Source: Adineta ricciae
Taxonomy: Eukaryota > Rotifera > Eurotatoria > Adinetida > Adinetidae
DNA length: 64,000 nucleotides
Direction of reading: 5' to 3'
NCBI GenBank assembly: GCA_905250025.1
Contig: CAJNOJ010000338.1
Coordinates: 37,926 to 101,925 of the forward strand
Below, one piece after another: positions 25,608 to 55,780 of this stretch (position 1 is the first letter of the stretch; every line of letters starts with the position of its first letter). A program made the position numbers and the translations under genes. The notes beneath the pieces are model-generated. The model was given only the letters and a program-made list of their open reading frames with translations, was not told the origin of the DNA and did not search any database.

Positions 25608-25641
25608 AATTCTTTCTCTGTATCCTTGTAAATGTATTGCT

Positions 25642-25647
25642 AATAAA
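25642..25647 (+). promoter_or_regulatory. Polyadenylation signal AATAAA
   Basis: AATAAA 35 bp after the NHL-EGF stop; conserved at 50631 in the second copy. Confidence 0.6.
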
Positions 25648-27546: not shown

Positions 27547-28759
27547 TCACTCTGAAGCAAGTTCTTTCTTAATAAACTTCAACGCACTAAACATGTTCAC
27601 ATTTTCCAGATAGATAATTATCAAATCAACTGATTGTTTGATATTGGTCACCTTGAACATTGTCGTAGGTAGAAGCAAGACTTCCTTCTCATCCTCGTAT
27701 TCAGAAACGCATGGCAAGTTGTCCGACAACCTGTACAATGCAATCGCCGTGTCACATAGTTCAGGGAAAATTAAAAACCATGAGAACACGCTTTTTGTCG
27801 GTCACAATTGACGGACCGATGAATTGCCGGGCTACCTGTTCTTCAAGTGATGTCGAACAAAAGGAAGATGTTCTGATAAGACTGCTCTTGTTGTGTAATG
27901 CCCATTGGTATGCTTTCAGATCTTCATTTGTCATCGTCAGTCCACGAAACGATTGACCTTGAAATGTTCGATCCTCGAGCGATTGCAACCGCAATAGAAG
28001 AGGCATAAAGAGAACATCACTGTTGTTCCGATTAAGACTCTTATAGAAAGGCGTTTCAAGCGAGTACAACCGGAGAAGTGGCTCGAGTTTTTTTTTCTTG
28101 GCATATTGTAAGAATAATTTTCGAGCTTTACGATATTCCAAATGAGTCGTTGGAATGCTACCGTGAATGGCTGCTTGCAGTTGTCTCGTCATAATTTTTT
28201 CCGTATTTTCCTGCCAAAAGAATAATTTGCATGCCGCCTTCATAGGTATTTGATCTAAAGGATTTGTCAAGAACTTTCTTCGGAAATTTGCATAACTAAT
28301 ATACGAGTCCACCATATTACGGTGTATATCTACCCAATCACTACTCGGCTTTGTTTCTGGCACGTGATCTTGGCTGTTTGTAGGAGCAGTCGTGTCAAAA
28401 AGAGAACTAACATCGTCATGTGAACAAAATCTGTTGTATCCAGGACGCTGGAACAGCTGCCGGATCTGATTGGTAGATGCTTCCTGATACGCGGTCAGTC
28501 CATATCTGTTTTTTCGGTGACGAATAACACCGTATTCGTTCAAAAGGAGATGCACTATTTGACTGTGACCAAAGAAAGCGGCAGCATGAAGAGCAGTGGA
28601 TCCGTTCGGTTCGAGTTGATTCATGTCAGAAAAGTGCTGTGTAGACAGAATTTGTCGCGTTGCTTGTACATCGCCATTGCGACAAGACCAGTAGAGTAAA
28701 CTTGCTTCACCTATTCTAGGAGTATCACGAGAGGCATTTGTGCTGCTTTCGTTGCCCAT
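27547..28759 (-). pseudogene. Ankyrin-ADP-ribosyltransferase, frameshifted copy
   Basis: Same protein as the intact gene at 52091-53302: MGNESS start, two to three ankyrin repeats (GSTALHAAAFFGH core), spacer and ART domain. The Arg motif (SFRGLT) and Ser motif (SSFCSTSLEEQ) are present. One extra base near 27763, within the codons after VLMVF, moves the frame into a TGA. This cuts off the C-terminal 70 residues that hold the catalytic Glu-x-Glu (EKEVLLLP), which continue in another frame. Without that motif no transferase activity is expected. The rest is well conserved, so the lesion looks recent. A sequencing error at this one base cannot be excluded. Confidence 0.85.
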
Positions 28760-30149
28760 TTTTTTCAAGTTGTGCAACTTATTCCAAAGCTTGTGCACAG
28801 ATTTTATAGAGTTGATGTTGCTAATAAAATAATTGTTCAGTTAATGACACAGAACGGTAGTTCTTCTCTAGATGAGTCAGTTCTTATCACACTTAACAAT
28901 TCATACATGGGAAAAAGCCAACCACTCATGACACATTATTTTCATGGAGAACATACACATCATGATTGATACTTCCGTTTACACACTCGACCGTAAACAA
29001 GCGAGATGCATACAGATACAGGTGCACGCAGACATTGGTGAGTTGGGTAGAATAGCTTGGAAGAAAAAGAATTTACCTTTCACATTGGGAAAATGTACAA
29101 AGTAAATGAAAACACACATAAATTCATTATGCTTACTCATGGCTCGTACTCAGATACGTTGAGTAGCTACACTAACCCTGTAGCACTTGAACACATAAGA
29201 AACTTACATTTTTCTTTTTAATCGAAACAATAGAAATGCATACTTGAATATATAAGATAACTCTCGACGGCTGTGAGGGCTATTTACTGGATGAGTTTTA
29301 CTACAAAAATTTAATTCTGAACTACTTACGATTCGGACTTCGACCTTGTTTATGAGTCATCATCAAGTACGTCCGGAATTTCCAAGGACGCTGCATAAAA
29401 TTAAATCCGAGCTCCGAAGAAAGCTATGAGAGTCAATTAATACGACTTCTAACATCAGTCTAGTGTTAAGATATAACTCCACTTCTTTATGAGTAACAAT
29501 TTGAGAACAAATTTGACGAGATTAACAGCAGCTTTGAACTTAATTTTTCATTTGATTCGAACAAGTTGATTTCGAATCGACAAATAATAATAAATTTATT
29601 TGATAAAATATTCTCTTCATAAGGAAATAATCAAATGAATATGAGCATGCAATCTGTCGACGTTTCAAAGGCTAATTCTTTCATTACCGAGACCAGGTGT
29701 TGAATGATTCATGAACAATGCAATCAAAGAGAACGACGAGAAAGTCAAACTATATGCCCTATATCCAATCACAAACTATATCAGCATTTTCACCATAGAT
29801 TTATTCTCCTCTCAGTAAAAGTGACGACATAATTCTACTTTTTCTCAAAACCTATAAAACTATTTTCATTGAACATACACGAGGACACTTCACTTAGCTT
29901 TTCTTTTTCGTTTTATTTCATTCTTTTTCCAAAATGCATTCATTCAACAGTTGGTATTTCAATGACAGTACGCGCAATGAGACAATAAACTAATCCCATC
30001 ACAAGCCCAGTCATCAAATGATTGATAAATCTGTTGAGAATCTGAACATTTCTTTGAATTGCGAATTCAACGGAATTCCAGAGCCGATAATTTCATCGTT
30101 TCAATCGTAGATCATTTCGGTTCATCCGATGATAAACCAGTAGCACAGT
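28760..30149. other. Non-coding part of block A
   Basis: No gene. Sequence is almost identical to 53303-54495 for long stretches, showing recent duplication or gene conversion. About 100 bp near 29570-29680 are absent from the other copy. Confidence 0.6.
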
Positions 30150-30592
30150 AATTGTTTAATAAATCTATTAGAAAATTTAATACACGATCAAATCATGAAT
30201 TGAATAACTTGATTGTGTCAACCGTAGATGACTCCGATACGTCTAATGATAAATCGATCGACAAATTGAATACTCGACCAAATTGTAAATTGGACAAAAC
30301 ATCAGCAATTAATTTGATTGTTGCATTCGAAGATCATTTAGTTATGTTTGCCAGTAAACCAACAGAACAATAGGCAATCGATAAAACCATTGAGAATTCG
30401 ATTGGTTTCTCCAATTGCGAAGTGAATATAACATCAGCAGATAGGTTGAATTTGTCAACCAATAGTCAATCAAATCAAATCGATAGCTTTTATATTCTGA
30501 CTGGTAAGAGTCCAGTAGATATCTATGATGCGATCTATGAACACGAATTCATTCCAATTGATTCAACTGTTAATCGTTTATACAAAGATTAT
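30150..30592 (+). pseudogene. Extracellular-repeat receptor fragment (block A)
   Basis: Broken frames match 54498-55300. A readable piece is DSFYILTGKSPVDIYDAIYE followed by HEF...TVNRLYK, part of a repeated extracellular module also seen at 43.6-44.2 kb. There are several stops. Homology with blocks B/D ends exactly at 30592. Confidence 0.6.
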
Positions 30593-30593
30593 T

Positions 30594-30609
30594 CCCTTTT
30601 CTGAAAGAA
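30594..30609 (+). repeat. Inverted repeat, left arm (partner 43524-43539)
   Basis: CCCTTTTCTGAAAGAA, two bases after the point where homology to blocks B/D stops. It is the reverse complement of 43524-43539 with one mismatch. Confidence 0.55.
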
Positions 30610-32861
30610 AGGGTTATAGCGTCATAAATCTGATCGTTCAAATGCAAAAAGTTTGCTTGTTTGCATAATCCAATCAGATTGCAGCATCCAATAAATGAAT
30701 GAAAATTTAACCATGGTCATTACCAAACGATTGTGGAAAGGTTTTCGGGGTCGAGGATCATGAATTAGACATCACGTTTGGAAGGTTGTCAATCTCATGG
30801 CATAATAGAACGGATATCAAACTGTTCGATGTGTAGCGCTGCGTTGAAGAAATAGTTTGTGGAAATCAATGTAAGACCTGTATGAAACGTATATAAAAGG
30901 CGTATTAAGAGTTTAGAAGCTTTTTACTAAATGATTTTGGTGCGTGTGTTAGAGATTCCTCTATGAAGAGCATTGTGGGCTATAGTGTTGCCGAAATATA
31001 TTTCAGTCAATGACGAAAAGGGATCAACGAAATAAATCCCTGGCATCGTGATGGAAGGAAAGAAGACACGTGGAAAAATCGAAATTCATTTTTTTTATCA
31101 GATTCTGCGTTTTTTGTTTATTCTGTTATAGTGGGATGAAGATCCGCTTCTACTGATCGCAATTAATATCGAGGAGAAAGACATAAAATATGCAACATTG
31201 TACAACGACAATTAAACTAACTTTGAATGATAAACATATTGAACGAAGTAAAGGTTTGCAAAAAAGCACGCTTGTCGTTCTCAAATTATTTCTTTGATTC
31301 TCATTTGAACCCTCATTGATGTTTTCGACGTTTTCACTTTGGATATGTAAAGTGTGTAAAGGTTTCCATATTTCTTCTATGCTATCAAAGCGAAGATTAC
31401 CAAGTATTCAACTAATAAAGTAATAAACATGTTGAAATTATTTTTGTTTGGACATCATTGCAAATGAAATACAGTTTACAAGATCTTCCCATGCTACAAG
31501 ACATTCTAGAATCTATATATATGATATGCGGTGACTCTTCGTTAGACCTGAGGTCTTTTTATATTGGAGCGGATAGGTTTAGATAGATCGGTAGTCAGTT
31601 AGAATATAGGCAAGGAGAACTCCGAGATAACATACATAGATTGCGCTTTTGCATCATTATGAAGAATAAGAGGTAAGAATGTCCTACTGAACAAGTACAT
31701 GTGAAAAAAACATAAATCTGTTATCTATTTATGCTGCACTTTTTTTGAATGTAAAGTCGATTTATTCTTAGCGGCGCGACCAGTGAACAGGCCAATGGAG
31801 AAGGATGGAATGTGTGAATTCGTGAGTATATAGATCGACACGTACGATGTCGCCCAGGACGTAATAGTTTATAGAACAATTATTCCTAAGCAATTTAGGT
31901 GATATAGAGATCTTTACTCAAAGCGAAATCATAAGCTTCATACACGAAAGCTGCTTTTCGCTGGTTTGGTTACATTATAGAAATTGATCTACATTTTGAT
32001 TAGCCAATTATTTGTCATTGTGCGTCGACGTCGATTGTTTTAAGGAGAGCAAATGGTCTACTCTACTTCTCATGTAACGTATCCCTGGTCTGCGTTGTGT
32101 GGCAATTCATTATGCATAACTATAGTATGATCTCTATCGAAAAACGATTTGTTTATATACCTGAATTTTTTAATATGGAATGTGTGTAAGGTATGATGTT
32201 TAATTCCAGGTCGATCATTCCGGCGACTGGATCTGTTGAAATCTGAGTCGGTTCCGGCACAGTTTTCGCCGATTCCAGCAGGTTCCTTGCCGCCGAGTTC
32301 TGGCTGGAATTGCACAGGAAATATCCGAGCAGTTCCTGACCGTTTCCAGCTCGAAGTTTGCATGAAACGGTCAGGAAATGACTGGAACCTATGTTTGAAC
32401 TTCCGGCCGGAACCGACCGTGCCATAATAACCTGGGAGCAAATGTGAAAAGTTGTTATAAAAATACAACAATATTTCAAGAAAAAAACTTAATTAGCAGA
32501 AAGATCTATTCGATATTTCAACAATCCACTCAGAACTAACGATAGGACTAGAAATTATTTCTGTTAGATGAAAAGCGTTATCTTTTTGTCCAGTTTCAAA
32601 AGAAAAAAAATGATATCTGCGTATATATGATATCTACATATATAAAAGATCACGATTAATTCTCTTGCAATAGTTGGATAAAGATTAAAGAAATCTTTTA
32701 ATTTGATATCGAATTCTTTCTCACCTAATCAGCTTAGGGAATAATCCGTGATTTGCCATTTTCAATTGATTTTTATAGCTATGACTGTCATTCATTTATA
32801 CATTTAAAAATCACATTAAAATAGTCTGTTGAGTATAGTGTGATAAATTGATTTATATCAT
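30610..32861. other. Gene-free left part of the 13-kb segment
   Basis: No coding frame with support. It contains a GC-richer block with nested inverted repeats at 32200-32435 (annotated separately). It is otherwise AT-rich and unlike the rest of the window. Confidence 0.45.
32248..32416. repeat. Nested inverted repeats in a GC-rich block
   Basis: Outer arms 32248-32258 and 32406-32416 (TCGGTTCCGGC and its complement) enclose a perfect 14-bp hairpin: 32333-32346 with 32364-32377 (TTCCTGACCGTTTC), loop 17 nt. The block is rich in variants of GGTTCC/GGAACC and much more GC-rich than its surroundings, so it probably comes from a repeat element. Confidence 0.65.
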
Positions 32862-35800
32862 TCACACAATCACGTCAATTTCTTCACGTTGAAGATCACG
32901 AGCAAGAATATCAACAAACTTGTCACTCAAATCTAGCGCAGCACTGAGATCTGTTTCCTCAAAATTTGTGATATGAGTTTTAAAAACTGATGCCATTGTA
33001 TTTGGATACGTGCCAATTTTCATTAATTTATATCGTATTTTTTTATCGTTGAGCGAAGCACTAATTCCTTCGATCGTAAGACCGCAGGGACAACCGGCGG
33101 GCCAATGATCGCCTCCACTTGTATACAGAATTCCGTGCGGTGGCGCATCAGCAATATGAACAATATATTTCAGCGCACTCGAATCACGCCATCGGGTATT
33201 CATCACAGCATCGTTTAGTCCGTCGAGAACAGCCTTAAGAAAGTTTTTTTTAATTAAAAAGACCCAAAGTAAATGGCTTAGATTTCTTACTTCTGGTCCA
33301 TCTCCACCGCCAGTAGCCTGAATACTATCAACATATTTCATGATAGCTGTAGAATCTGATAAATTCTCAGGATTTGAGTTAGTTACAAATGAAGTGTCTT
33401 GAGGAGGATGATCGCGATAAGCAACGAAACGAAACTTTACGTCTTTGATCACCTTTGTTGCGCCAATAATGCGATGAACAGTTTTCTTCGACTCAATAAT
33501 ATACGAACTCATCGAACCAGTTGCGTCACAACAAAAGACAATATCGAGTTTATCAACAACATCATGTTTACATTTGAAAACGTGATCGCCACTATGCCAA
33601 GCGTTCGCTATACAAAAGTTCGGCGAATCATCGATGTGGGAAGGATGTGGGCAGAAGAAAGAGCACGCATTAACAATGCCTAGGATATCATCGTTGTATG
33701 GTACACTCCAGCCGAGTGAATGCCAGTAAGCTTCACATAACCAGAGATCATATTTTCGATCTTGATATGGATACCATGAATCGTCTGAATGTCTTGCATA
33801 GGAATACAGTTTACCAGCACATCCATGTTCACCTGGGCATGGCTTAAGATGAAAATGCGAACGTCCGCGACGTTCACATGATTCACTACAAATTTCCGGC
33901 TTACAAGATTCACCAGGTTTATATTCGTGTGATCTTCCATCTACTTTGATCACTACTGATTTTGACTCACTATGTTTAGATACAAAAACATTACATTCTT
34001 TATTTCGATGAGTATTAGTGTGATGATACGACTCTAGATGCTTGTTTGGAAGTTGACAAAAACTACGACACTCTGGACATTGATAGCCACAACGATGTTC
34101 GATTTTACAATTGTGAGCTTGAGTACCATGAGTAAGAGTATGAATAGGAATAGGTAGAATACACTTTGAACGAGTTGGTTTTGGTTCATAGAATTTGTAT
34201 GGAAATGTATTCATGGCGTTTTCCCATTGTTTCTCAATAATATCATATCCGATTGAGCAAACACCTTCTTGAATACAATCATATGCGCATGAATGTTCGT
34301 TTTCACAAACATGATAGTCAATAATAAGTTCGCCCATCTTGAGCTTATTCTTTTTCGCATCGTCAATTAATCGTTGATGAGCATGATTAACGAATATACA
34401 ACGTCGACGGCACTCTAGAATTTGACAGGAAAATGGACAAACTGTTTCAGTACAAATATGATCTTTGTGGTCTATTTGTGCATCAAACGCGCAGTTTTTG
34501 TCGCATTTTGGGTACTGTGAACACTTTTGCGCACAGTAGTGTCGATTAGTGCAGTCATGTACATCCTGATTGTCATGATCGACCTCCAGAGAACAAAGTA
34601 GCATACATGTTGTCGTTTTCGTACATGGTTTTCCACAAGTATGACCATCATTACAACGATGTTTGTCTTCATGGCCATACAATTGAAAACAAGTATTTAC
34701 TCCATTGCATAGTTCACACGGTGCTCTACAAATATGATCTGTTTCACAGTTACAATCATCGCGGTGATCGAATCTACTGTTGCACAAGCGTCGACAGCGA
34801 TGACAGGAACGTAAACATAATCGCATCGACTGACCAAATTGAACTAATCTCGTCTTCAGTGCTGTTTCAAAATCTTTAATATCTGCTGTGTAGGTAGGAT
34901 CATTAGTTAATTGATTACGAACGTGTGAGACTATAAACGCAACTCTATGTTCTAGCGTGATTGTTTGTACTTTACTCAGATTAGTCAACCATGTATTGTG
35001 ATGTGCTTCTTGATATTTACAATCGAAATGATTCTCTATCAACTGAATAAGTGTGTTAATCATTTTGAAAGATTCTTCTTTTTTATCTGAATCAAGTATG
35101 GTAAAGTAAAAATCGATAACTTCATTGCCATCCGTGAAGTTTAATCTTTCTTGATCGACTATAATTTTGTCTTCAATATTCGGATTAGCCAATTGCTGAA
35201 CATGAATGGTTAATTTGTCACACGTAGAGAACTGATTTCCGCCTTGAGCCATCATCACATACGCTTCGCGTTCCAATCGTGAAAAAGCCATCTTTAATCG
35301 ATGGATATCCATGACTGTATCATCATCAGTATGAACTTGTGCTAGAGTCAGTTTAAGGCTTTCTAGAAAATCACGTCCCGTACTCCAGCGAAATGGTAAA
35401 CTGATGATCATCTTGCGAACCAGCTCAATTTCAGCATCAAAAACACGGTTTTCAAAGTGATGGAGGCACTGACCGACAATTTTCCCACCAAACAGTTTTT
35501 CTAAGTATCCGGAACGATTACTTCCTGCTTGTTGCCGAACATTACTAATAAGTTCGACATAAGCTCCCTCAGCATCTTGTGATGATACGTCTCGAATGAC
35601 CATCATTAGATGTCCTTTGAACAATTGAGAGCCTTTCACTCTATCACAGCTCTTGGCGAAATTACTAAATAGCTGATTGAGGTGTCGGTTGAATGAGAGA
35701 TCTTGATTAAGGAGAAAAACGTCAGTTACGGCAGCAAGTGTTAGACATAATTTCATCTCTTCTATATCATTTCGCCGAGTAGAGAATAGACCTTCGCAAT

Positions 35801-36702
35801 CAAGAACCACAACGACTTCATTGTGGAGAAAAGCTACTGAGAGCCAAATTCCATCTGTACATCTTGTAGAAGCCACGTTGAAACGAGTACCAGTTACACG
35901 ATTTAAAAAGTAGGATTTACCTAAAGTGATCAAGAAACCGTGTTTAAGGGGTTGCAAAGCTAGCGTATTTACATCTAAATGGTACAAAATATCATTTGCA
36001 TCCTTAGTCTTGAGTATTCCTATTTGCACACATTCTTTAAAGAGCGTAGTAAAAACCGAGGTAATTGATACGATATGCATTCAACTTTCCGAATAAGCTG
36101 TAAGACATATTTTCGCTCTTCACAATTTAACGTATGAATTCTCTATCTTTTAATCAGTTGATCAGACTTCGTAAAAGAATAAAATATTCACATATATGTT
36201 TGATGTGTTCATCTAACCCAGCGACTTAAGTAAACTCATAAGTCTGACTTGCAGATTAAAAATAACAGCTTCAACTTTTTTCAAAACTGACATACGCTTG
36301 ATGTCAGTTGTAATCGAATTCCATTCTACTCAAGTGAGATTCCTGAAATATTTTGTTCATAGGTTAAAACTATCGAAAAGTTGAGATAGTCTCCTACCCC
36401 ACTACACTCCATTGATTTGTGTAGCATGTAGAAAATTGATGATCATGTGACTTACCTCCACTTTGTCGACCGACGATTGCAATTACTTTCACTGGTTGAG
36501 CACATTCTAATAATAGCTGCTCGTATGAACCTATTCGGGTCAGTTCTGTAATACATTGAATAAGACCGGTTTTATTGTCTTTCGAAATTTTCCATGCAAC
36601 AATATCATTGGTAATATTTCGTCCGTCCTGTAATGGGAACATATTAGATTCTTCAATTGTGGCAACATGAATTGGTACACGTGTTTCAATAATTCGTCGC
36701 AT
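32862..36702 (-). CDS. VLIG-like large GTPase with Cys/His-rich region and C-terminal vWA domain
   Basis: Three exons (36702-36456, 35920-33291, 33233-32862) join in phase to 1,082 residues. The first intron splits the P-loop: GRQSGG in exon 1, KSYFLNR in exon 2. Further G motifs are RCTDGIW, LDCEG (G3) and IRDV (G4), the pattern of very large interferon-inducible-type and GBP-like GTPases. The middle has a long run of Cys/His motifs of the form H-x-C-x-x-x-C, like NF-X1 or other zinc-binding repeats. The C-terminus is a vWA domain with MIDAS motif DATGSMSS and GGGDGPE/AVLDGL, the second split by a 57-nt in-frame intron. Such proteins are probably cytosolic GTP-driven assemblies; the role here is unknown. 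The frame is open upstream to a TAG at 36721, beyond which another long frame follows. Confidence 0.8.
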
Positions 36703-36720
36703 ATCATGTAGTGAAATTTG

Positions 36721-39330
36721 CTATAATCGGCGAAATATTATTTTCCACTCAGGTTCATCTGTAAATGATTCAATCTCTAAGGTCATTCCAACCGTGTATA
36801 AATGAGTAAAATATGTATGTAGTTTATTTGGTGTTGGAAAAAGCTTTTCAGGTAAAATCAGAACGATTTGTGTTTTGCAAGGACTCCCAATAGAATCTGA
36901 CGATGGACCAAACTTTCTTTGGGCTATGTAGAAAATGTCAAGCACCGGAAAGCCTCTAACTTGTTGTGATTCATCTCGGTGTACTTCAAGCGTGCGTGTA
37001 GCTGACAAACCTCGCAATAAAAACACTGTGACGTTACTCTTTTTATCAAGAAGAGTGACATAAGTGTTCGTTTGATCAGCAAAACTTTTAAATCCAACAA
37101 AACTAAGTGGTTCAATAATTGGTAAAGTACCAGTTTTGGTCCATGTTAAATCGTATATGTCAACTGATGTTTTACACTGGAGCAAAATACACTTACCCGT
37201 GGAAATTACATCTAGAGCAAAATATATTGATTCAGGATCACCTGTTGGACTCAACTCGACTTTTTTAATGTAAGTATCTTCGTTTACTCGACGACAGACA
37301 TGTTTCATAGTTTCATTAATATATCGATATTCGATAAGATTTGATTGTTCGTCGAAAAAGAGAATGGAATCACTGCCGTATAAGAAGCAAGCCGTTTCAA
37401 TATGAATCAGGACTTTTGGAGATCCATCTTTATCAAATAGATCTTCGACTATCTTATCATATAAAGTGTGCACAGGAGTCGGTGCTTGTAAGCAGCCAGT
37501 TCGCTCATCCATCTTGCCACGCTCTACCCGCCTATTGAGATTGTCATATATAAAATAGATATTTGATTTTTCGTTCATGAGAAATTTGGTAACTGGCGAC
37601 GAGAGTCGTCGAGCCAATTCTAATTCCGGATTGTCTGCACGAGAAAAATTGAAATAATAAAGTGATGACTTCCCAGGTGGAAAATTACTCAAACTAAGAT
37701 ATCCAATTTTGTTTGATACAAAGAAAAGTTGAGATAGCCGAGGATTTTCTATCGAACCCGCCTCGCGTATTTTTAATTGAAAAGGTTTTCGACTTATTTT
37801 GAAATCACCAACATTGGCTTCGACATCAATTATCGGATTGATTTCGTAAAAATTACAGTTCAAATCGAAGTGAGACGTATGCGTGGTTTTCTGTGCACGT
37901 TGGTTTAACCAAAGAACAAGTTCATTAATGGAGGATTGTCGAATGTCTTTTTGTGAGTCAGTTAGCGATACGTCTCGCTTTTGTAAATATTTTTGCCAGG
38001 ATTTCTTGATGTCATCATACAGCTGGCTATTGCGGTCCTTGTGCATCATATATTGAAGGCTTTCTGGTTCATATTTCTGTAATAATTCTTGTAATTCGTA
38101 TATTTTGTCCGAGCAGTTGCCCACTTGATGTATTGATTTGACAATATAATCAACTGTAACACAAGAAGATGAACATTTCGTTCCCGATTTTGTATAATCT
38201 GAAATCGATGTTTCTAGTGAATTTGAAAGGTCTCTTCCAACAGATGATCCGCAGGAATCCTTTTTGAATTCTTGTCCGTTATAGTATTTCAAGCAAGAAT
38301 GATCTTTAAATTGCTTAACAAGCTGTTTAATATATTGTTCATTAGCCTTCACTAGATTATCGCGCGTTATCGATTGGTAGCGTTCATGTATTTCATCGAG
38401 AAGCGTAACAAAGGCGGCATGTTCTTCATCAGGTATAAACTCGCGAAATACTTTCATAGCACGATCTTTCAAAGTGCTAAATAAATCCGGCTTAAACCAT
38501 GAACCTTCCACGTATGTAATAGCCTTGTCATAATCAATGGGCTTATTTGAGTTCCTGTACGAGTTCTCAAGATCTTTTGATGAAACTATAATTTCTTTTT
38601 TCTTACTTTCAGTGTTACTATGTAGATGATGCATGTAAAGAAATTGAGTATGATCTTGTAAAACGCGTATCTGAGTATCGCATCGGCTTTCTAAACTATT
38701 GTGCCTATCACGACAGTTGTCAATATGGGGTGGTACTTGACTATTGTTTAATTGTGAAATGGAAATTGTCTCATTTGGACGAACACTACGTTCTTGCAAA
38801 TGTACGGTAGTATTCACTGTATCTTGAAATGGGTTGGTTGTGTTTGTTTCGTTCTCAATACCATCCGGAGGAATAACCACAATCCTTTCGCATACGTCGA
38901 GCATGTATCGTACATAATCAACAGCTAGTGCGGTTGGAGATAATGGGCCTGACCAAAGTGTTGATCCTGGTGGACAATATAAGAACGCTACCTGATTGAA
39001 GTTCTTCACTAAAAGTAAGCTTTCTCTCGCTTCATGAATTGTATTTGTTGTTACTGGCAATGCTAACTGAGACGTGCTATCATCCAGCAAATGTTGTAAT
39101 ACTTCCTGTGATTTGTCTTGTGTAATATTAAGAAATTGACTCGCAGCATTAGTTACTTCTTTTGCATCGCCGATAAAACCTACACAAGTTATTTTACCAG
39201 CATCCAGAGAAAATTGGCTGAAGAATTTCGAAAATTCGTCGGCATTGTACTTGATCTTCTTTAATTTATATTCGCTTGAGATATCCTCAAATGTCTCAAA
39301 CACTTTGGCGTATGTTAACGTAGCGTCCAT
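36721..39330 (-). CDS. 869-residue protein of unknown function, in frame with and just upstream of the GTPase
   Basis: One uninterrupted frame from ATG 39330 to TAG 36721-36723. No domain recognised. The first 180 residues look globular and the middle is helical and charged. The last 350 residues are beta-rich and may form a propeller-like fold. There is no signal peptide or TM segment. After the TAG the same frame goes on without a break (six codons to the next ATG at 36702) into the GTPase exon. Possible readings: N-terminal half of one gene with a new nonsense codon or read-through, or a separate gene 18 bp upstream in an operon-like pair. No good donor site was found that would splice out the TAG, although the TAG itself could serve as an acceptor. 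Confidence 0.65.
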   Translation of the reverse strand: MDATLTYAKVFETFEDISSEYKLKKIKYNADEFSKFFSQFSLDAGKITCVGFIGDAKEVTNAASQFLNITQDKSQEVLQHLLDDSTSQLALPVTTNTIHEARESLLLVKNFNQVAFLYCPPGSTLWSGPLSPTALAVDYVRYMLDVCERIVVIPPDGIENETNTTNPFQDTVNTTVHLQERSVRPNETISISQLNNSQVPPHIDNCRDRHNSLESRCDTQIRVLQDHTQFLYMHHLHSNTESKKKEIIVSSKDLENSYRNSNKPIDYDKAITYVEGSWFKPDLFSTLKDRAMKVFREFIPDEEHAAFVTLLDEIHERYQSITRDNLVKANEQYIKQLVKQFKDHSCLKYYNGQEFKKDSCGSSVGRDLSNSLETSISDYTKSGTKCSSSCVTVDYIVKSIHQVGNCSDKIYELQELLQKYEPESLQYMMHKDRNSQLYDDIKKSWQKYLQKRDVSLTDSQKDIRQSSINELVLWLNQRAQKTTHTSHFDLNCNFYEINPIIDVEANVGDFKISRKPFQLKIREAGSIENPRLSQLFFVSNKIGYLSLSNFPPGKSSLYYFNFSRADNPELELARRLSSPVTKFLMNEKSNIYFIYDNLNRRVERGKMDERTGCLQAPTPVHTLYDKIVEDLFDKDGSPKVLIHIETACFLYGSDSILFFDEQSNLIEYRYINETMKHVCRRVNEDTYIKKVELSPTGDPESIYFALDVISTGKCILLQCKTSVDIYDLTWTKTGTLPIIEPLSFVGFKSFADQTNTYVTLLDKKSNVTVFLLRGLSATRTLEVHRDESQQVRGFPVLDIFYIAQRKFGPSSDSIGSPCKTQIVLILPEKLFPTPNKLHTYFTHLYTVGMTLEIESFTDEPEWKIIFRRL

Positions 39331-40664
39331 TCAACAAAATTTTATTTTAAAAGAAAAACAAGGAAATGGCCAGTAGAAGTGTCACTAAATGATACACCGA
39401 CAGTGACTGACTCTTTTTTTATATAGATTATTCACTATGAGTTTCTTCCAACATGCTTATCAGAAGAAGAATAGGTAAACATATTTCTTTTTCACCACAC
39501 TTATGTGTATGTCGCATTCAGCAGAGTGAATCATCAACAGTTGTTTTTTCTTATCTTTCAAACTTTATAGTTTTATTATACGTTGTTGTCGTGGGACAAT
39601 TTTCAAATTTATGAAACCGTTCTTTAAGAATGCAATGACAATATACTCATTGTTCTTTTTAAGTAAGCAAATAGCCAATCAATATTTATAGGTAATGAAC
39701 GTGAAGACGGATAAGAGACGTATAAACCGAGAGTCGAAGTGTTCCTATTCTCTCAAGCAATATGCTGAAAGTTAAATTTAGAATCTTCAATATGTTAGAG
39801 TAAATGCATTTACTTTATGGAATTAAAACGTTATATTCCCATCCTGAAAGCATGAGTATAATAAACCGAAAATGGGATACTGAGGGTATGAGGGTGAATA
39901 AAATGATCGAAACCAATGTCATCAAAATCAATGCCTGAACAATGAGTTCTAATTGCAAAAACAAGTCTAATAGAAATAAAAGAATTTTATTCGAAGCATT
40001 CAGAGAAATTCGATTAGTTTCAGCGAGTGTTTTGACTCTTTTAGAACTATGGGACTAAAGCGAATCATTCATCGAATACATTTTACATCTCGAATATTCG
40101 ATTTTATCTCACTGTCAGAACAGCAAAGTAGATAAACTGCATCAGTTCGTTCTTGTCTTCAAGTCTAGATGGATTTTTGTAAGAGAATGATCGTTTTCTC
40201 AAGAAGTATCATCGTAGTCACAGTACAACAGAATGTTTTTCGAATCAAATGTCGGCAGTCATGTCAAAAGCTGTTTTACGATTAGCTTGTATATCCTTCC
40301 GCCTATCGTAAAAGATCTTCGTGTGATCGTGAGGTATAACCTTGGGATCCTATTGACTCAATAAACACATACTGAATTTGATGGATGGGAGAGGAGTGAG
40401 TGTAAAAGTAATGCCATTCATTCTCGAAATAATTGTGAAGTGAAAGACAAAAATCGAATCGTTTGAAAACAATATTAGTCGAAATGCTACCAAAAATATT
40501 CAAATGTGGACGAATGTGTTTGTCTTCGAATGAAAGAAACGAAATTTCTCAACAGATAAACAACATTCGAAAGTTCTATGATAAGATTTGCATTCTGCTG
40601 TTGACAAATACCAAACGTTTATCATTTATACGGCAACAGAATATGTTGGAAACTTTCTTTTGTC
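39331..40664. other. Divergent intergenic region
   Basis: Lies between the 869-residue gene (-) and the caspase-NHL gene (+). No gene or RNA feature recognised. Presumably contains both promoters. Confidence 0.4.
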
Positions 40665-42586
40665 ATGGCGCGTGCAGAATATCGAAACGATTCTCGTCGT
40701 AAATTGGCTTTGATAATCGGAAATGGTGATTATGTCATGGGAAGATCTTTATTCAATACAACAAATGATGCAAAACGAATGACAAATGTTTTAAAACATC
40801 TTGGATTTGTTATTCATGGAGGTGAACCGAAACTAAATGTAACTTTCGATGAATTTGCCGTGACTTTGACGAGTTTTATTTGTTCAATCGGACCAAACGA
40901 TTTGGTTTTGTTTTATTATTCTGGACATGGAATTCAATGGGAGGTAAATTAGTCTAATAATACCACTTTCTCTTTCTATTTTCTTCTTTCTCTCGTACAG
41001 GATCAAAACTATTTGATTCCAGTGGATAATTTCAAAGAGGAAAATAATCGAAGAGTCGAACTGAGTGGAATAGATTTAAAAAGACACGCGATCAATGCAC
41101 AAACTTTTCTGAATACTCTCGATGATCGGGATCCATTTGCAATTTTATTTTTCTTGGATTGTTGTCGAACATACCATTTAAGACATGAAGAATTACGGAA
41201 AAATCGATCAAAAGGTGATCTGTCTACTCATTTTCAGGGATTAAGATTAATGCCTTTGAAGATTGGTTCATTAATTGCATTTGCTTGTGCACCTGGAACA
41301 ACCGCGGATGATGGAAATAGTGAAGAGAAGAATGGATTATTTACAAAACATCTTTTGAGACATCTTTCAACATCGGAGGAAGATATTTTCGGAATATTAA
41401 CGAATGTAACAAAAGGAGTTGTTGAAGAATCGAACAAACATCAAATTCCACATGTCACATTTTCGTTAACTGAAAAGATTTTCTTATTCAATGAAAAGCA
41501 AAGTAAAGATCAAATCAAAGAGAAATATATCAGGATAGAGAAGGACTAGATAGGTGTATAGTCATTGTTGGTCTCACTTAATACGAAATTGGCTCTACTG
41601 GATATTTACGTTTCGAAAATGGAACCGAGAAGATTCTTCAACAAAATTTTTTGAAGATTGTTTTTTTTGTTTCGATTTTCAAATCATTTTCGACTCTTTC
41701 TTCTTAAGTAGAAAGCAAATTCAACAAATGGAAACAAAAAGGAACAACTGTAGCAGGAGGATATGGAAAAGGTCACGAATTAAATCAGCTCTGGCATCCA
41801 ATTGGAATTTTCATTGGCAAACGCCTAAATCTGTTTATTGCTGATTATCATAATCATCGAATCATTCGATGGAAACCAAATGAAAGTCAAGGAACGATCG
41901 TGGCAGGTGGAAAAGGAATGAATCAATTAAATTGCCCAACATATGTGATTGTGGATGAAGAAAATGATTCATTGATTATTGCTGATAATGGAAACAAACG
42001 AGTGGTTCGATGGTGGAATGAGAATGAACAAGAAGTTCTCATTGATAATATTCAATGTTGTCGATTGACCATGGATCGAGATGGATTGCTTTATGTTTCG
42101 GATTGGAATAAACATGAAGTGAGAAGATGGAAAATAGGAGAAAAAGGTCGAGGAAAAGTAGTTGCTGGTGGAAATGGAGAAGGAGATCAACTGAATCAAC
42201 TGAATTCTCCCGGTTTTATCTTTGTGGATGATGAAGAATCTGTTTATGTTTCAGATTATGAAAATCATCGTGTGATGAAATGGAGAAAAGGCGCAAAGGA
42301 AGGAATTGTTGTTGCGGGAGGGAACGGTTGTGGAAATCATCCGAATCAACTGAATGGTCCTCAAGGAATTTGTGTTGACAAGTTTGGTTGCATTTATGTT
42401 GCCGATTGGGGAAATGATCGAATAATGCGTTGGTGTAAGGGTGACAGAGAAGGTGAAATCATTGTTGGCGGAAATGAATCAAATCAGTTGTGTTTTCCGA
42501 TGGATATTTCATTTGATGTTAAAGGAAATTTGTATGTTACTAATTATGGAGATCATCGCATCACAAGATTCGACTTATATTCTTGA
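40665..42586 (+). CDS. Caspase-like (C14) protease fused to a six-bladed NHL propeller
   Basis: Exon 1 (40665-40943) and exon 2 (41001-41502) encode a caspase/metacaspase-type domain. It starts with LALIIGNGDY, has the catalytic His in FYYSGHG (residue 88) and the catalytic Cys in ILFFLDCCRTY. Exon 2 runs open to a TAG at 41547, but a GTAAAG donor at 41503 and an acceptor at 41708 join it in phase to exon 3 (41709-42586). That exon encodes six NHL blades (IVVAGGNGCG, IYVADWGNDRIMRW and the like). Total 552 residues. No signal peptide or TM, so cytosolic. The propeller is probably a sensing or targeting module for the protease. The 206-nt second intron is longer than others here, so two separate transcripts remain possible; but exon 3 has no ATG of its own ahead of its first blade. 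Confidence 0.75.
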
Positions 42587-42769
42587 AATCGATTTCGAAA
42601 ATACAATTATCTGAAGAAATAAATGATTTTTCCTTTCAATCGAAATCATGCGAATGACTTTTCGTCGGATGATGTCGGCACATTTATGATGATGACATTG
42701 TAGATATAAAAAATGGCCAAATGGATGTGAGTTGTAAGATAAAAAATCCACACAATTCTTTCAGACAAT

Positions 42770-43316
42770 GGAAACAAAATGCAACTGTAAAAAGTTTTTC
42801 ATAATAATACGAACCATTGACTCGATCATTTGTATTGGCATTGAATTGTACTGAACCAGACACACCAAGAAATTCGATTGCATTTAATAAAAAGTTTTAA
42901 TGAACAAAACGACGATAAAAACAAGGTGAAGATCCAATAAATGTTGAACACGAAGAAGTATTTAACGATGAGTAGATTTGTTGTAGAGACTTAATCAATG
43001 TCCATGTCGCATCAAATGCAAATAATGTATAATTGCTCATTTTTTCTAAAGTTAGATAAGTTTCAGGTTCATATTGCGACCAAATTTCGTCAGCCTCATT
43101 CAATAACGTGCTGTTTATTGGTTCATTGACAATAACACTCGTCACAGGCTCAATAGTAAGTAGTTCAATCAGATTTTCACGAACAGTTTCATTAAAAGAG
43201 TCTAATGGGATGTTCGTACTCGATGTACATGTGAGTTGTAGATCAACAATATTCAATTGAAGTGCATCTTGTATAATCGAGATTGTGTAGTTCGATTCAG
43301 TCCATACAACCACAAT
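42770..43316 (-). pseudogene. Fragment of a receptor ligand-binding (ANF/GABA-B type) domain
   Basis: The minus frame of 138 residues contains YTLFAFDATWTLIKSLQQIY, the typical end of a type I periplasmic-binding-like receptor ectodomain. After a single in-frame TAA (42897-42899) the frame goes on with NFLLNAIEFLGVSGSVQFN and NDRVNGSYYYEK, the segment that always follows it. The first part of the ectodomain and all TM segments are missing. It is a broken, truncated receptor, convergent with the caspase-NHL gene. Confidence 0.7.
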
Positions 43317-43523
43317 TAAAGTTGAACTTTGTGTTAAGATCTAGTACTTGGAAACTATTCCCTGATAAATGAGTGATTGGTTCGATTCATGAAAAAAGAA
43401 GAATCCTTTTCTTGTATTAATTCTCGCGTGGGACACAATGCTATGATCTAGGTGAGGGTCAGTAATAACCACAGTGCCCTATTTGTTTTTCACTGTATCT
43501 GAATACACTCAACAATGGAACAA

Positions 43524-43539
43524 TTCTCTCAGAAAAGGG
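43524..43539 (+). repeat. Inverted repeat, right arm (partner 30594-30609)
   Basis: TTCTCTCAGAAAAGGG, complement of the left arm with one mismatch. It lies 31 bp before the point (43571) where homology to block D starts. Confidence 0.5.
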
Positions 43540-43570
43540 TCGGCGAATCCATAGGATGAGCGTTACTTGT

Positions 43571-44730
43571 GATACTTGTAATCGGAAACAATTCAAACTT
43601 CTCTTATACTTGAATGCCAATACTGCATATGTACTGGTTGTGTTAACATATCAACAATATGCGACAGGAGCATTCTTATTCATCGTCAATGATCCTAAGA
43701 AGGTTGAATTTAAAACTATCAGTGAGTCATATTGGATAGACAACGATGAAAGACAAATTTTTCTTCGTATCAAATAGATAAATCATCAATAATTTACTCA
43801 GTGTATTCATCAACATTGAATGCAAGTAGTCAAACATATACTCGATGTTTTCTTGTACCTACAGTTTACTACGAAACGTTCAAATGAATGTTTTCATCTA
43901 GGCGGATTCTATAATATTAGAAGTGCAAGTGATTATGAGCTGTACGGATATTTTTATGAAGAAAATTTCGATTCGTTTATAATCTATCAACAAATTTAAT
44001 TGAAGAAAGTGATACCGACTGTTCTCCTGAAGGATTTCGATTTTTTCGTAAATTCACTACTGACACAATGTACATCTTAGATGTTACTATATTTACTTCG
44101 AAAGTCACAGGTTCATTCGCAATCTTCGTATCTGGTCCGGTGAATGTAACTCTCGAACGTACAGGTATGCAGTTTTGCTTTCTCATGATCCTGCCAGTAA
44201 AAAATACTTGTTGAACAAATGTTTAGTTCAAAATTCCGGCAGTTGATATGTTGGGAATATGTGTAATATGCACGTCGAAGGTATTTGGTTGACTCTTGAT
44301 AATATTTTAGGTCATGTGATCAATAAAACCAAAATATTTCATCAACAACCATTTTCATTGAAGATTAGTTCGACTATGGCAATAATTATGTTCGTTGCAG
44401 ACTTGATAAACGACGTTTTGTGTTTAATCACACTTGAAAATAGGAAATTACGAGAAATGGGATGTGGACTGCATCTTTTCATCTAATCGCCTATCTTTCT
44501 TCTTACAATTTCGATGCTCTTAGCAAAGTTTTGGTTTACTGTTTCTACTCAAATGAACATCTCGATTCGCCTGTCGATACTCAATGATGAATTCAAATCA
44601 ATGGGATTTCCTTTCAAGTTTTTCTTCCATTCGAATAATTGCTTAAATGGATGTGTAGCCTGTGAACAACCTGTTTATGTCCTTAAGTTGACAGACAAAA
44701 TCCTTTCTTTTTCAAATAAAAAATGTTGAT
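43571..44730 (+). pseudogene. Extracellular-repeat plus 7TM receptor, inactivated (block C)
   Basis: Two copies of an extracellular module can be read: 43571-43777 (FKLLLYLNANTAYVLVVLTY) and 43900-44165 (TMYILDVTIF...SGPVNVTLERT). A frame change inside the second lies near 43975-44005. From 44330 a 7TM start follows (ISSTMAIIMFVADLINDVLC, KLREMGCGLHLF). An in-frame TAA at 44484-44486 interrupts it, then it continues (SPIFLLTISMLLAKFWF, CLNGCVACEQPVYVLK) and ends at 44728. Later TM helices are absent. The same stop is present in the copy at 55.4-55.8 kb. It was a cell-surface receptor of a family with repeated ectodomains; dead now. Confidence 0.7.
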
Positions 44731-45233
44731 TGGTACGATCTAATCGAAAGTAGAGTTGTCCTTTGATGAGGTAACGTCACTACAGCGTAACGGTGACTCG
44801 TATTATTCGTAATGTTTTTATCTTCGTTCTCTTCTTCTTCTCTGACACAAGTATCTATTTACAACGGATACTACGTTCCTTTCGTCCACGTTTCCTTTTC
44901 CCCTGTAGCATATTTCGTAAGTAATTAGTCAACGATTTCTCTGTAAGCATTTGAGATTTGAACATCAAATTAGTATAGAATTTATAAGGAAGGAAATGAG
45001 TTATAGAAAACGAATAGAATGGAATGATTGATGAAACAAGCTCTGACTTGATATGATTAATTACCGTCTTTTTTTTCTCACAGAATGAAATTTACATAGA
45101 AGAAATCAATCGTTGTGATGCAACACGATTGAAGTGAATTTTTCTTTGCAACTTTCATCAAATGTCAAAAATCTCCGAATTTAATTTCAGATATTTATCC
45201 TAAAATCGAGTTTCCTTCATAGAAAAAAAACCA
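44731..45233. other. Intergenic, no gene seen
   Basis: Matches 55784-56325 of block D along its length; the CTT tract there is much shorter here. Contains the promoter side of the zinc-finger gene. Confidence 0.5.
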
Positions 45234-46106
45234 ATGGCATTATCGACACGACCTTGTGCATTTCGTCAATGCAGACAACCATGTCGAGCGTTATGTTTAT
45301 TTTGTACTCAATATCTATGTCGTGAACATTTCGATAATCACGATCATTCGATTAATGCACAAATTCCAACGTTAGTGAAACAAATCAAAACACTAATAAA
45401 TCAACTTGATGATAGTCTTAATCCCATCTCATCGTCTTTAAAGTGTTTAAATCAATGGCGAATAAATGCTCATCGAACAGTTGATCGATTCTATGAAGAA
45501 AAATATCGACAATATCAACAAATCATTGAAAGGAAAACCGACGAACAGAAAAGACAATTTGATAAAATGGAAATAAAATTGAGTGAATTAATTCGACAAC
45601 AACAAGCAACAGACGAAGAAATTAATTCAATGCAACAATTGATTGAAAATATGAAATTTAACATTCGAAACATGAAAAATCTTCGTTTAAATATCAATCC
45701 ATTACTCATTGCTGATAATCTTGTTACTATTCCAAACGAGAATTATGGAATAGTTGATCCAAACAATCATTTTGTTTTTGAAAATTGTGAGAAATTTTAT
45801 ACTCTTGATAAATCACTCTCACGGTGGAAAGTTGAAAAACAAGCAAAAGAAATTCCAAATTCAATGAGTATGTTTATTTTACAAACAATTCGTCAGTTTA
45901 TCGATACACATGGATCGTCAAACATGGAAATTATAATGAAGAAAACGAAAGATTTGCTTAACATATCGTATGGTGAACATTGGATTGTTCAAATTGTTGA
46001 TGAACGTGAAAATCAATATTCTGAAATCGATGATTTTGTTGAATGTTTACGAGCGAAAGAAACACAATTGAAATGGATAATTCGAATTTTAAAAAGAAAT
46101 TTTTAA
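45234..46106 (+). CDS. Zinc finger (B-box-like), coiled coil and dynein-light-chain-like C-terminus
   Basis: One exon, 290 residues. Residues 8-38 hold Cys 8, 13, 17, 21, 24, 29 and His 32, 36, 38, a B-box-like zinc site. Residues 50-160 are a charged coiled coil (KYRQYQQIIERKTDEQKRQF). Residues about 205-288 (IPNSMSMFILQTI... KKTKDLLNISYGEHWIVQIV) follow the pattern of dynein light chain LC8/DLC proteins: helix, I-K-x-x-x-D, Y-G-x-x-W-x-V-x-V, then beta strands. B-box plus coiled coil recalls TRIM proteins, but no RING or SPRY/NHL is present. The DLC-like end would serve dimerisation or cargo binding. It is preceded by ATG in a purine-rich leader identical in the second copy. AATAAA overlaps the stop (46105). 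Confidence 0.7.
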   Translation: MALSTRPCAFRQCRQPCRALCLFCTQYLCREHFDNHDHSINAQIPTLVKQIKTLINQLDDSLNPISSSLKCLNQWRINAHRTVDRFYEEKYRQYQQIIERKTDEQKRQFDKMEIKLSELIRQQQATDEEINSMQQLIENMKFNIRNMKNLRLNINPLLIADNLVTIPNENYGIVDPNNHFVFENCEKFYTLDKSLSRWKVEKQAKEIPNSMSMFILQTIRQFIDTHGSSNMEIIMKKTKDLLNISYGEHWIVQIVDERENQYSEIDDFVECLRAKETQLKWIIRILKRNF

Positions 46107-46479
46107 TAAAAAAAAAAAGAAATACATTTCTCGAACGAAATGTTAAACGTAAGGAAAGAGCAGAAAACTAGAAAATATGAGATCGTGTACGTATAGATCC
46201 ATAAAAGAAAACCACAGTGTCGAACAATCCGAATTCGCAAAAAACATTCACAACGATGACTTAATCAATAACGAAAGTTTGTTGGATAAAAATAAGCATT
46301 TGAATTATGAAAATACTTGTCGGAAGCATTGTTGTGAATGAAATGATTGAAGTAAGATCTTTTGAATTTTCAATTTGTGTGTCATGCAGAAATATGACTT
46401 TAGTTCCTTTTAGATAAAACCTCATTGACAGCATATTCAATCAAAATTCAACAGTTCAAATTGAGAAAAATCTTTCTAT

Positions 46480-47300
46480 TCATTGTTAGATATAATATGA
46501 CCTTGCGTCATCAATCGAGAGATCTTAGTCAATAGCGAGAGAATGTGTACAGAGCAGTTCATCGATTATATGAAAGAAAACTTCAATAATTCGTTCAAAC
46601 GACGAGAAATAAACAGAAAAAAAAGAATTTTACCAGATGAAAATAAAGTTTAATGAGTTAATTCGGCAGCAGAGAGCAGCAAAAAAAAACAGATTAAGTC
46701 AATGGAAACGATCGATTGAAGTTTTCAATTAAAACATTGGAAAATTGCAACATGTTCATTTAAATACCAATTTATTGACCCTTGATAATGAACTTATGAC
46801 TCTCCCAAACGAAAATGATATCATTTTTCAATGAAACGTCCCTTTATATTGAAGATAATTCACTATCGCGAGGGATTTCAGATTTGATGAGAAATAATAT
46901 TCTGAATAGGATCAACGTTTTAATCGACACTCAGGGATTATCAAACGTTGAAAAATATCATCAGGGATATGAACAGATGATTTAATGAATTGTTGGAAAA
47001 CCATTGGATCGTTCAAGCTACTGGTCAACATCAATTTAACCGTATCAAACGATTCATTCAACGGAATATTTACAAACTAGAGAAACAAAATTAGGATGAA
47101 TCATTGAATTTATTGACTAAGAACTCAGGAAATGAGTCTATCGAATAACAAAGACGGAGGGTAGTTACACATATTATAACTTTTCGAATTCGAAGCAAAG
47201 TCACCGTTGAGTACATTCATAATGTTGATACTTTCTTCAGAAAAACGAGTATTGTGTTTATGTTGTTTCAAAGTGATGAAAATAGTTTCCTAAATGTTTA
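46480..47300 (+). pseudogene. Degenerate tandem copy of the zinc finger-coiled coil-DLC gene
   Basis: Nucleotide traces follow the order of the gene upstream: the coiled-coil part near 46560-46710 (cggcagcagagagcagc), then the DLC part near 46910-47080 (gacactcagggattatcaaa, ccattggatcgttcaa). Many stops and deletions. A matching remnant follows the second gene at 57.6-58.2 kb, so decay began before the block was duplicated. Confidence 0.6.
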
Positions 47301-47730
47301 GTCTATTTTTACTCCAGTTGTTTTGTAATCATTTGACTTGGATGAAAAATTTGTCCTTTTTCTAAAAAAAAAGTCATGTGCCTGTGTATGCACATGATTA
47401 TTCTTGAGTATTAATTAATTCTTCCTTTACATCTCTGTTGTTTTGTTTTATTGAATAGTCTTAGAGAGAAATATCCTATTTCCTTTACCACCTACACTCT
47501 TAAGAAGAACCTGTTTAGCTGCGCTAGAGTTTTGCACAAGAACAAGCGACAAAGTCGTCATAACCGTCGATTTGGTACGTCAAAAAATACCAGCGAAACT
47601 AATTTTCCGTGATATGAATTAAAAAAAGAAGTGTTATTACTACATAGAATGAAAAACAAAGGAGATATTTAAAAGAACGTTCGTCAGAGATTGTCGCTTG
47701 AAGTTTTCTTTTTATCGAATAATTTGAGGG

Positions 47731-48605: not shown

Positions 48606-48696
48606 GTATACTGTAGTCTGAATATATACTATTTTGTATGAATTGGAAAAATCATGTGATCAAAGAGGCTCAAAAAATTTTCATAGAACAGCAAAC

Positions 48697-50596: not shown

Positions 50597-50630
50597 AATG
50601 CTTCCACTGTGTCCTTGTAAATGTGTTGCT

Positions 50631-54489: not shown

Positions 54490-55780
54490 AGCACAATAAT
54501 TGTTTAATAAATCTATTAGAAAATTTAATACACGATCGAGTCATAAATTGAATACCTTGATTGTGTCAACCGTAGATGACTCTGATACGTCTAAGGATAA
54601 ATCGATCAGAAAATTGAATACTCGACCAAATTGTAAATTGGACGAAACATTAGCAATTAATTTGATTGTTGCATTCGAAGATCATTCAGTTATGTTTGAC
54701 AATAAACCAACAGAACAACAGACAATCTATAAAAACCATTGAGAATTCGATTGGTTTCTCCAATTGCGAAGTAAACATAACATCAACAGATAGGATGAAT
54801 TTATCAACTAATAGTCAATCTAATCAAATCGATAGCTTTTATATTCTGACTGGTAAGAGTCCAGTATATATCTATGGTCCGATCTACGAACACGAATTCA
54901 ATCGCAGGAAATGACCGATTGTAATGGCAAGTACTTCAAACTGACAATTTATCTTCAAGTGAATGTTACATATATCTTGATCATATCGATATACGATCCG
55001 AATACTACACATCCGTTTTCCATCAATGTCCTTGGCTTGGGAAATGTCAACCTCGCTTGGGTTAAAGATTTTCCAATAACTCGATCGATTTAAACATCAA
55101 TATTAACAGCAAACCATTCGATATATTCTGGTACTGGCTGTGACAATCTTAAATACTACTTTGAAGTCATACAAATCAATGCGGAAGAGAATGGATATTA
55201 TATCATAAGTAGTGATAGTTCGATAAGTACCGTCGGTCATATTCGCGAGCACGAATTCATTTCAATCAATCCAACTGTTAATCGTTTATGCAAAAATTAT
55301 GATACTTGTATAATTGGAAACAATTCAAACTTCTATTATACTTGAATACCAATGCAGCATATGCACTGGCTGTGTTAACACAAAAGATTTCATCAACAAC
55401 CATTTTCATTGAAGATTAGTTCGACTATGGCAGTAATTATGTTCGTTGCGTACTTGATAAACGACGTTTTGTGTTTAATCACACTTGAAAATAGGAAATT
55501 ACGAGAAATGGGATGTGGACTGCATCTTTTCATCTAATCGCCTATCTTTCTTCTTACAATTTCGATGCTCTTAGCAAAGTTTTGGTTTACTATTTCTTAC
55601 TCAAATGAACATCTCGATTCGTCTGTCGATACTCAATGGTGAATGCAAATCAATGGGATTTCCTCTCAAGTTTTTCTTCCATTCGAATAATTGCTTAAAA
55701 GGATGTGTAGCCTGTGAACGACCTGTTTATGTACCTAAGTTGATAGACGAAATCCTTACTTTTTCAAATAAAAAATGTTG
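54490..55780 (+). pseudogene. Extracellular-repeat plus 7TM receptor, inactivated (blocks B/D)
   Basis: Readable modules: 54820-54905 (DSFYILTGKSPVYIYGPIYE), 54911-55093 (FKLTIYLQVNVTYILIISIY) and 55190-55375. A deletion then joins 55377 directly to the 7TM start (55388 on, ISSTMAVIMFVAYLINDVLC). About 660 bp present in block C are missing. The TAA after CGLHLF is shared with block C. Frames change several times; not functional. Confidence 0.65.

Follow-up and report, generated by a model that had tools for sequence, protein, structure and literature searches.

How does a 13-kb block of gene-bearing DNA come to be present in one copy of a chromosomal region and missing from the other? The question is raised by a 64,000-nucleotide stretch of contig C338 from the rotifer Adineta ricciae (the window, in what follows; positions are counted from its first base), which contains two colinear copies of a region, A and B, with the block in copy A. 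The original prediction, made from the letters of the window, proposed that a mobile or composite segment had been inserted or else that the other copy had lost it. Our analysis favours insertion over loss: the block is very likely a rolling-circle insertion of the Helitron2/Helentron type, placed without target duplication at A|T in one of two homologous copies (here and below, a bar marks the point of insertion).

When the window was compared with itself (BLASTN, E≤1e-5), copy A (23699-30592 and 43567-48696) was found to be colinear with copy B (48689-59621). Each is about 11 kb long, copy A being broken between 30592 and 43571 and copy B unbroken, and the two differ by a clean segment of 12,978 bp. 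No piece of 30593-43570 matched elsewhere in the window at the DNA level. The filled left junction reads ...AAAGATTAT|TCCCTTTTC (in a longer reading, ...GATTAT|TCCCTTTTCTGAAAG) and the filled right junction ...GCGTTACTTGT|GATACTTG. In copy B the empty junction at 55300/55301 reads ...AAAAATTAT|GATACTTG, which can also be written ...AATTAT|GATACTTG. One T at the borders is ambiguous: 30592-43569, which takes A|T as the target, is equivalent to 30593-43570, and the length is 12,978 bp either way. The insertion site, ATTA|TGATAC, lies between A and T, as in a canonical Helitron (Helitron1). Earlier claims that the segment is in just one of two colinear copies, that bases 30592 and 43571 have adjacent counterparts at 55300/55301 and that its contents have no other copy in the window were all borne out, the borders to within that one T.

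The relationship between the two copies is less certain. There are four single Ns in the window, at 5416, 15016, 48697 and 56715. The third stands between the copies, and the fourth lies between two 98% identical stretches of 111 bp (56604-56826), where an open reading frame (ORF) crosses the N and stops soon after. It looks as if contigs with unmerged overlaps had been placed end to end. The copies are joined at an assembly N, and for this reason we judge them to be probably two haplotypes, with a heterozygous insertion; the two colinear copies of the original prediction are thus confirmed as such, though they may be haplotypes rather than a tandem duplication. A true tandem duplication, with the insertion arriving after it and not being allelic, is a possible but less likely account. 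Both copies are on one contig, and for alleles they have diverged widely, with 91.3% identity when one alignment is taken overall and 94-95% for the two longest matches. Against this, the boundary between them falls exactly on a single N, with copy B starting mid-exon there, and the 111-bp stretches flanking the N at 56715 are what an unmerged overlap would give. A duplication would be compatible with a Helitron insertion, and the conclusion on the element is independent of this question. Both copies also contain an NHL-repeat gene followed by an ORF with EGF-like cysteine patterns, recognised by eye (23014-25607 and 48798-50596), and the gene of copy B starts at the N.

The ends of the segment carry an asymmetric inverted repeat. 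The bases CCCTTTTCTGAAAGAA (30594-30609) are complementary, with one mismatch, to 43524-43539, the inner arm lying 31 bp from the 3′ border, and mononucleotide shuffling of the 3′ 70-mer, repeated 20,000 times, never reached the score of 14 out of 15. An inverted repeat at or near the ends, as originally predicted, is therefore present beyond what chance would give. With A|T taken as the target, the element begins with TT... and ends with ...CTTG.

Both ends belong to a dispersed family in the genome, which was sampled as a 130-Mb assembly of 1,033 contigs, window included. At up to three mismatches the 5′ 29-mer was found at 322 places and the 3′ 44-mer at 144, each with a reversed-pattern control of 0. 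A query of 201 bases spanning the left border matched at least 40 places (40 of 310 candidates scored) and one of 321 bases at the right border gave at least 41 matches (40 of 276 candidates scored), the window's own being included in each. At seven other 5′ loci that were read the match starts no more than 11 bp from the border; the tip reads TTCCC (TTCTC in one) and the flanks differ. The 3′ ends read, 31 with that of the window, likewise have differing flanks; 20 terminate exactly in TTACTTGT and 11 in variants with one to three changes. Two 3′ ends on C304 (L037, 103336-103440; L038, 78074-78178) share near-identical flanks, suggesting a segmental duplication that includes an element.

Fourteen of the elements read, including that of the window, have two ends. 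The other 13 measure 701-1,610 bp; the loci reach about 1.5 kb past a match, so that only short elements are visible complete and this range is silent on the share of long ones. In two further loci (L022 and L028) a 5′ tip and a 3′ module are both present, but outside the thresholds for the 14. The inner arm is 31-32 bp from the 3′ border in all 14, with an arm complementarity of 9-15 of 15. The base to the left of the tip is A in 10/14 and G in 4/14, and a T closes the 3′ side in every case, counting the shared T as host DNA. By position only, pairs of ends 4-10 kb apart were seen on C292, C67, C135 and C74.

Empty sites were searched for with the joined flanks of 12 family elements and of the window (40 of 207 candidates scored). 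For an element on C185, 13 of the listed rows span the junction, and all four that were read have GACTTA|TAATATAAG, with no bases gained or lost. One related copy spans the junction of an element on C333, consistent with no target duplication, and for the other 10 elements queried no empty site was among the rows listed. The window's site gave only copy B (C338:93172-93305 and a neighbouring piece), with no third copy among the matches listed. Target duplication is absent at the empty sites read, those of the window and of the C185 element.

Could two unrelated ends simply flank host genes by coincidence, the block having moved in some other way such as recombination? The ends do resemble different subfamilies and the interior is mostly host-like. 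The other copy, however, lacks the block exactly from the first base of one end to the last base of the other, and the strong ends of this family in the window number just two, one 5′ and one 3′, the sole other match being a minus-strand 5′ tip at 42752-42773 with 5/22 mismatches. We regard this account as improbable. Marginally less credible still is that the segment is ancestral and was lost from copy B by a plain deletion: from two copies deletion and insertion look alike, and a third copy of the site was not among the matches listed, but a deletion would need a base-exact hit on both ends of a dispersed family with 1 bp of shared sequence, and other members of the family have clean empty sites. 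Borders that coincide with family ends, together with the clean A|T empty site and the like empty sites of other members, support insertion. A terminal-inverted-repeat transposon or an element of the MITE (miniature inverted-repeat transposable element) type, mobilised by a DDE transposase, can be dismissed: the 5′ tip has an inverted partner, but this lies 31-32 bp inside the 3′ border in 14/14 elements and the empty sites read have no target duplication.

The anatomy of the arms, the lack of a target duplication and insertion at A|T together lead us to the Helitron2/Helentron type. In Helitron2-like elements the 3′ inverted repeat is described as lying about 20-40 bp inside the terminus (PMC5148889). 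The original prediction had taken the inner position of the right arm and the lack of a visible target duplication as doubts about a transposon; both observations held, but they are hallmarks of this type and do not argue against one. It had likewise held that frequent occurrence of the terminal 16-mer would speak against it. The end is indeed frequent (the 322 places above), but since the loci read are ends of one element family the frequency supports mobility. A canonical Helitron (Helitron1) was ruled out by the termini, which are not 5′-TC/CTRR-3′, and by the inverted repeat, though the A|T target fits. Helentrons in the narrow sense are marked by an apurinic-like endonuclease joined to the Rep-helicase.

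Among described elements, FoHeli of Fusarium oxysporum also has inverted-repeat arms placed asymmetrically, that of the 3′ side about 20-40 bp in from the end, and is described as having a 5′ hairpin (PMC5148889). One FoHeli group has T at the 3′ side of its target (TNAT|T), and another ends in CTCCTGT (PMC5148889). FoHeli elements are described as about 5-11 kb long with ORFs of their own (PMC5148889), whereas the window element has no Rep or helicase match and carries host-type genes; the lengths of the 13 other complete elements, 0.7-1.6 kb, are partly a product of locus length. Helentrons and the DINE-1/HINE elements of Drosophila are similar to the present family in having non-autonomous derivatives with subterminal inverted repeats, for which stem-loops are also described, and a further likeness to Helentrons is the S after RG in the Rep motif of the candidate partner loci described below (PMC4067079). 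The target is defined as TT for Helentrons and as TTTT|T or C for Helitron2, with TNAT|T of FoHeli as an exception (PMC5148889); the A/G|T target of the family fits neither definition. Rolling-circle elements are reported to make up 0.30% of bdelloid genomes on average (PMC7943196). A search of the literature on Helitrons or rolling-circle elements in bdelloids, rotifers and Adineta, with supplements and repeat libraries outside its scope, had no title on such an element among those listed, and the family may already be in some repeat library or supplement.

The two ends of the window element resemble different subfamilies, and in this sense the word composite in the original prediction is supported. 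Over 170 bp the 5′ end is 87-93% identical to seven copies of one subfamily, X, and 48-75% identical to 12 copies of another type, Y. The 3′ end is 77-88% identical to 11 of the 12 Y-type copies; the remaining one, L030, gives 46% over a fixed 230-bp stretch and has a nested repeat within its 3′ module. Identity to three X copies (C769, C760 and C311) at their 3′ ends is 66%. A further three copies whose 5′ match is X-like (C167, C786 and C68) have a 3′ 44-mer of the form CAGCGAATCCAAAGG, that of the window being CGGCGAATCCATAGG, and on C226 the 3′ end downstream of an X-like 5′ match is 75% identical to the window's. The 3′ ends thus fall into three types or more, with identities to the window of 66%, about 75% and 77-90%, and none of these seven X copies has a Y-type 3′ end. 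Within the window element the first 1.5 kb, comprising the 5′ module and body, is element-like, and the last 229 bp are the 3′ module.

Ends from different subfamilies would fit terminator bypass during capture, and we consider it rather more probable than otherwise that an X 5′ end and a Y 3′ end were brought together in this way. Bypass that makes use of a downstream host or Helitron signal is described as the prevailing model of capture (PMC6431247). Here a Rep-helicase of the 'RGSLHLH' type, encoded elsewhere in the genome, would nick the 5′ end of a subfamily-X element. Rolling-circle strand transfer would then run past that element's own 3′ terminator, absent here, and across about 11 kb of chromosome with two divergent host genes, to terminate where a subfamily-Y element has its 3′ end. 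Together with its cargo, the single strand would be pasted at an A|T site, with the other copy keeping the pre-insertion site. Helitrons of Pleurotus ostreatus and maize also have genes between their ends, for which bypass is a proposed route (PMC4289320, PMC6431247). In maize these are gene fragments and in Pleurotus captured genes downstream of the Rep-helicase, whereas the window element has a complete multi-exon gene with upstream sequence and no Rep-helicase match (PMC4289320, PMC6431247); full-length gene acquisition by Helitrons is said to be exceptionally rare (PMC6431247).

In the contigs the Helitron Rep domain was matched at 37 places, and there were 54 matches to the PIF1 helicase. 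Thirty Rep loci were read; 22 have the motif around RG..H.H, with S at the diagnostic position in 19 and L in 3, S being described as the Helentron signature (PMC4067079). Two S-type loci have Rep, helicase and a family 3′ end in order on one strand: C620 (Rep at 24012, helicase at 27192, 3′ end at 31667-31710) and, on the minus strand, C315 (51416, 47893 and 42529, the 3′ end being a 60-bp match at 87%). The helicase is 4-5 kb from the 3′ end in both, and loci of this type are likely candidates for the autonomous partner of the family. On C68, too, a 3′ end comes after an S-type Rep and a helicase of like orientation, but a 5′ end lies in between and this locus was not counted as a partner. 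Two Rep-helicase loci of other kinds were seen. L039 (C676:9604-13146) has an uninterrupted frame of 1,536 amino acids with the L-type motif, the canonical Helitron signature, and marks a second, different Helitron lineage, possibly autonomous. L060 (C359:31376-34954) has another Rep type, RGSPHVH, in an open frame of 2,070 amino acids that also has a helicase match.

Several points weigh against a Helitron2/Helentron-type element that captured its genes by bypass. Drosophila Helentron derivatives are described as targeting T-rich or TT sites, with two T or more at either end (PMC4067079), whereas the empty sites here are A/G|T. Hairpins can be drawn at both ends, but the 5′ hairpin is set apart from shuffles in the window alone (z -2.70, as against -1.28 in the C185 element), and the 3′ hairpin is no stabler than shuffles in either (z 0.21 and -0.10). 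The window element has no match to Rep or the PIF1 helicase and contig C338 is outside the 37 and 54 matches, and the element looks non-autonomous on this account. Its link to an autonomous partner is made through two 3′ ends, with no Rep locus paired with a matching 5′ end. A copy on C1024 has a perfect 5′ tip about 0.4 kb from a 1.3-kb match to the element body; an X 5′ tip with the shared body could indicate a subfamily that already had an X 5′ and a Y 3′ end, in which case the chimera would be older than the capture. Finally, no close recent donor of the cargo was found among the candidates scored. The nearest caspase-NHL match among those listed is 77% identical at the DNA level (40 of 216 candidates scored), 36000-40400 has partial matches of 65-80% only (six of six scored) and 32437-36400 has no relative among 40 of 305 candidates, though nearly all of these 40 were taken by a nested repeat, so that a relative of the GTPase could have been missed. 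Among the 5′ ends listed (100 of the 322, plus 40), that on C336 alone precedes an NHL match on its own strand, by about 5 kb; with about 50 matches we estimate that one such linkage is expectable by chance, and it was not used as evidence.

Table 1. Features of the element, its interior and its empty site (window positions).
Feature	Position	Strand	Basis
Whole Helitron2/Helentron-like element, 12,978 bp, A|T insertion	30592..43569	+	filled/empty comparison, family ends
5′ terminal module, subfamily X; tip TTCCCTTTTCTGAAAGAAAGGG, hairpin possible	30592..30765	+	genome search, loci read
5′ arm of asymmetric terminal inverted repeat, 14/15 bp complementary to 3′ arm	30594..30608	+	shuffle-tested pairing
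Element body, 88% identical to one other copy (C1024)	30766..32095	+	genome search
Small nested repeat, MITE-like, at dozens of other places in the genome	32206..32437		genome search
Cargo gene 1, GBP/URGCP-like GTPase with von Willebrand A domain, 1,101 amino acids, ATG at 36702	32862..36702	-	ORFs, spliced profile match
ORF of 869 amino acids directly upstream of the GTPase, same frame, one TAG (36721-36723) between	36721..39330	-	ORF list
Cargo gene 2, caspase (C14)-NHL, 551 amino acids, SGHG and DCCR motifs	exons 40665-40943, 41001-41502, 41712-42586	+	intact frame, canonical introns
ORF of 138 amino acids, probably the predicted receptor fragment	42897..43313	-	ORF list; no family
3′ terminal module, subfamily Y, 90% identical to C185 copy, last bases GCGTTACTTG	43341..43569	+	genome search, loci read
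3′ arm of asymmetric inverted repeat, 31 bp from 3′ border	43525..43539	+	shuffle-tested pairing
3′ subterminal hairpin CG-A-ATCC-ATA-GGAT-GAG-CG, 7 nt before last base	43544..43562	+	weak, z 0.21 against shuffles
Single N between the copies; copy B begins mid-exon, in an ORF, right after it	48697		sequence reading
Empty target site in the other copy	55300..55301	+	junction reading

The predicted cargo, a GTPase-von Willebrand A gene and a caspase-NHL gene, was recovered by profile matches in both cases. The caspase-NHL protein matches Peptidase_C14 (E=5.5e-36) and NHL (6e-28), and its SGHG and DCCR motifs presumably hold the catalytic His and Cys. Its relative on C252 is 64% identical as a protein, with a ratio of nonsynonymous to synonymous divergence of 0.285 over 551 codons (Nei-Gojobori); most of this divergence is probably older than the capture and the ratio is therefore no proof that selection acted within the element. 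Loci on C993, C218 and C717 are homologous from about 0.7 kb upstream of the start codon, so upstream sequence was carried along with the gene. Literature searches on caspase with NHL in rotifers and on NHL repeats in bdelloids found nothing.

The GTPase gene has an intron at 36455-35921 (GTAAGT...TTTAG), which is supported by the improved match to GBP on splicing (E=7.8e-8, as against 0.0021 unspliced); the spliced protein also matches MMR_HSR1 (8.1e-5) and VWA_4 (3e-7). A comparison of the unspliced ORF with solved structures found nothing. The ORF upstream of it matches no Pfam family at E≤0.001, with sub-threshold matches only at E≤5, and is either an ORF apart or the N-terminal half of the GTPase gene, cut off by a premature stop. 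As a single TAG separates the two in the same frame, the GTPase gene may be damaged or differently spliced. The 138-amino-acid ORF has no Pfam match even at E≤5, which neither confirms nor rejects its earlier label of a dead receptor fragment. The nested repeat was ruled out as part of the family, since it has insertions of its own at other places, one of them within the L030 3′ module. An Rfam search found a tRNA and nothing else.

Helitrons are known for carrying gene fragments. With an intact multi-exon gene between the ends, an empty site next door and ends from mismatched subfamilies, capture by terminator bypass could here be read from natural sequence. If the copies are haplotypes, such elements can also cause whole genes to be present on one homologous chromosome and absent from the other. 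Both cargo genes, the caspase-NHL and the GBP-like GTPase-von Willebrand A, have domains found in proteins of cell death or immunity. More speculatively, and with low probability, a Helitron2-type lineage, probably of animals, might act as a cargo carrier in which mismatched ends of sister subfamilies move blocks of genes with their upstream regions, leaving the haplotypes of one individual different in gene content.

Elsewhere, the left part of the window has short diverged direct duplications of 85-92% identity at 3069-4419, 6123-6407 and 15033-15511.

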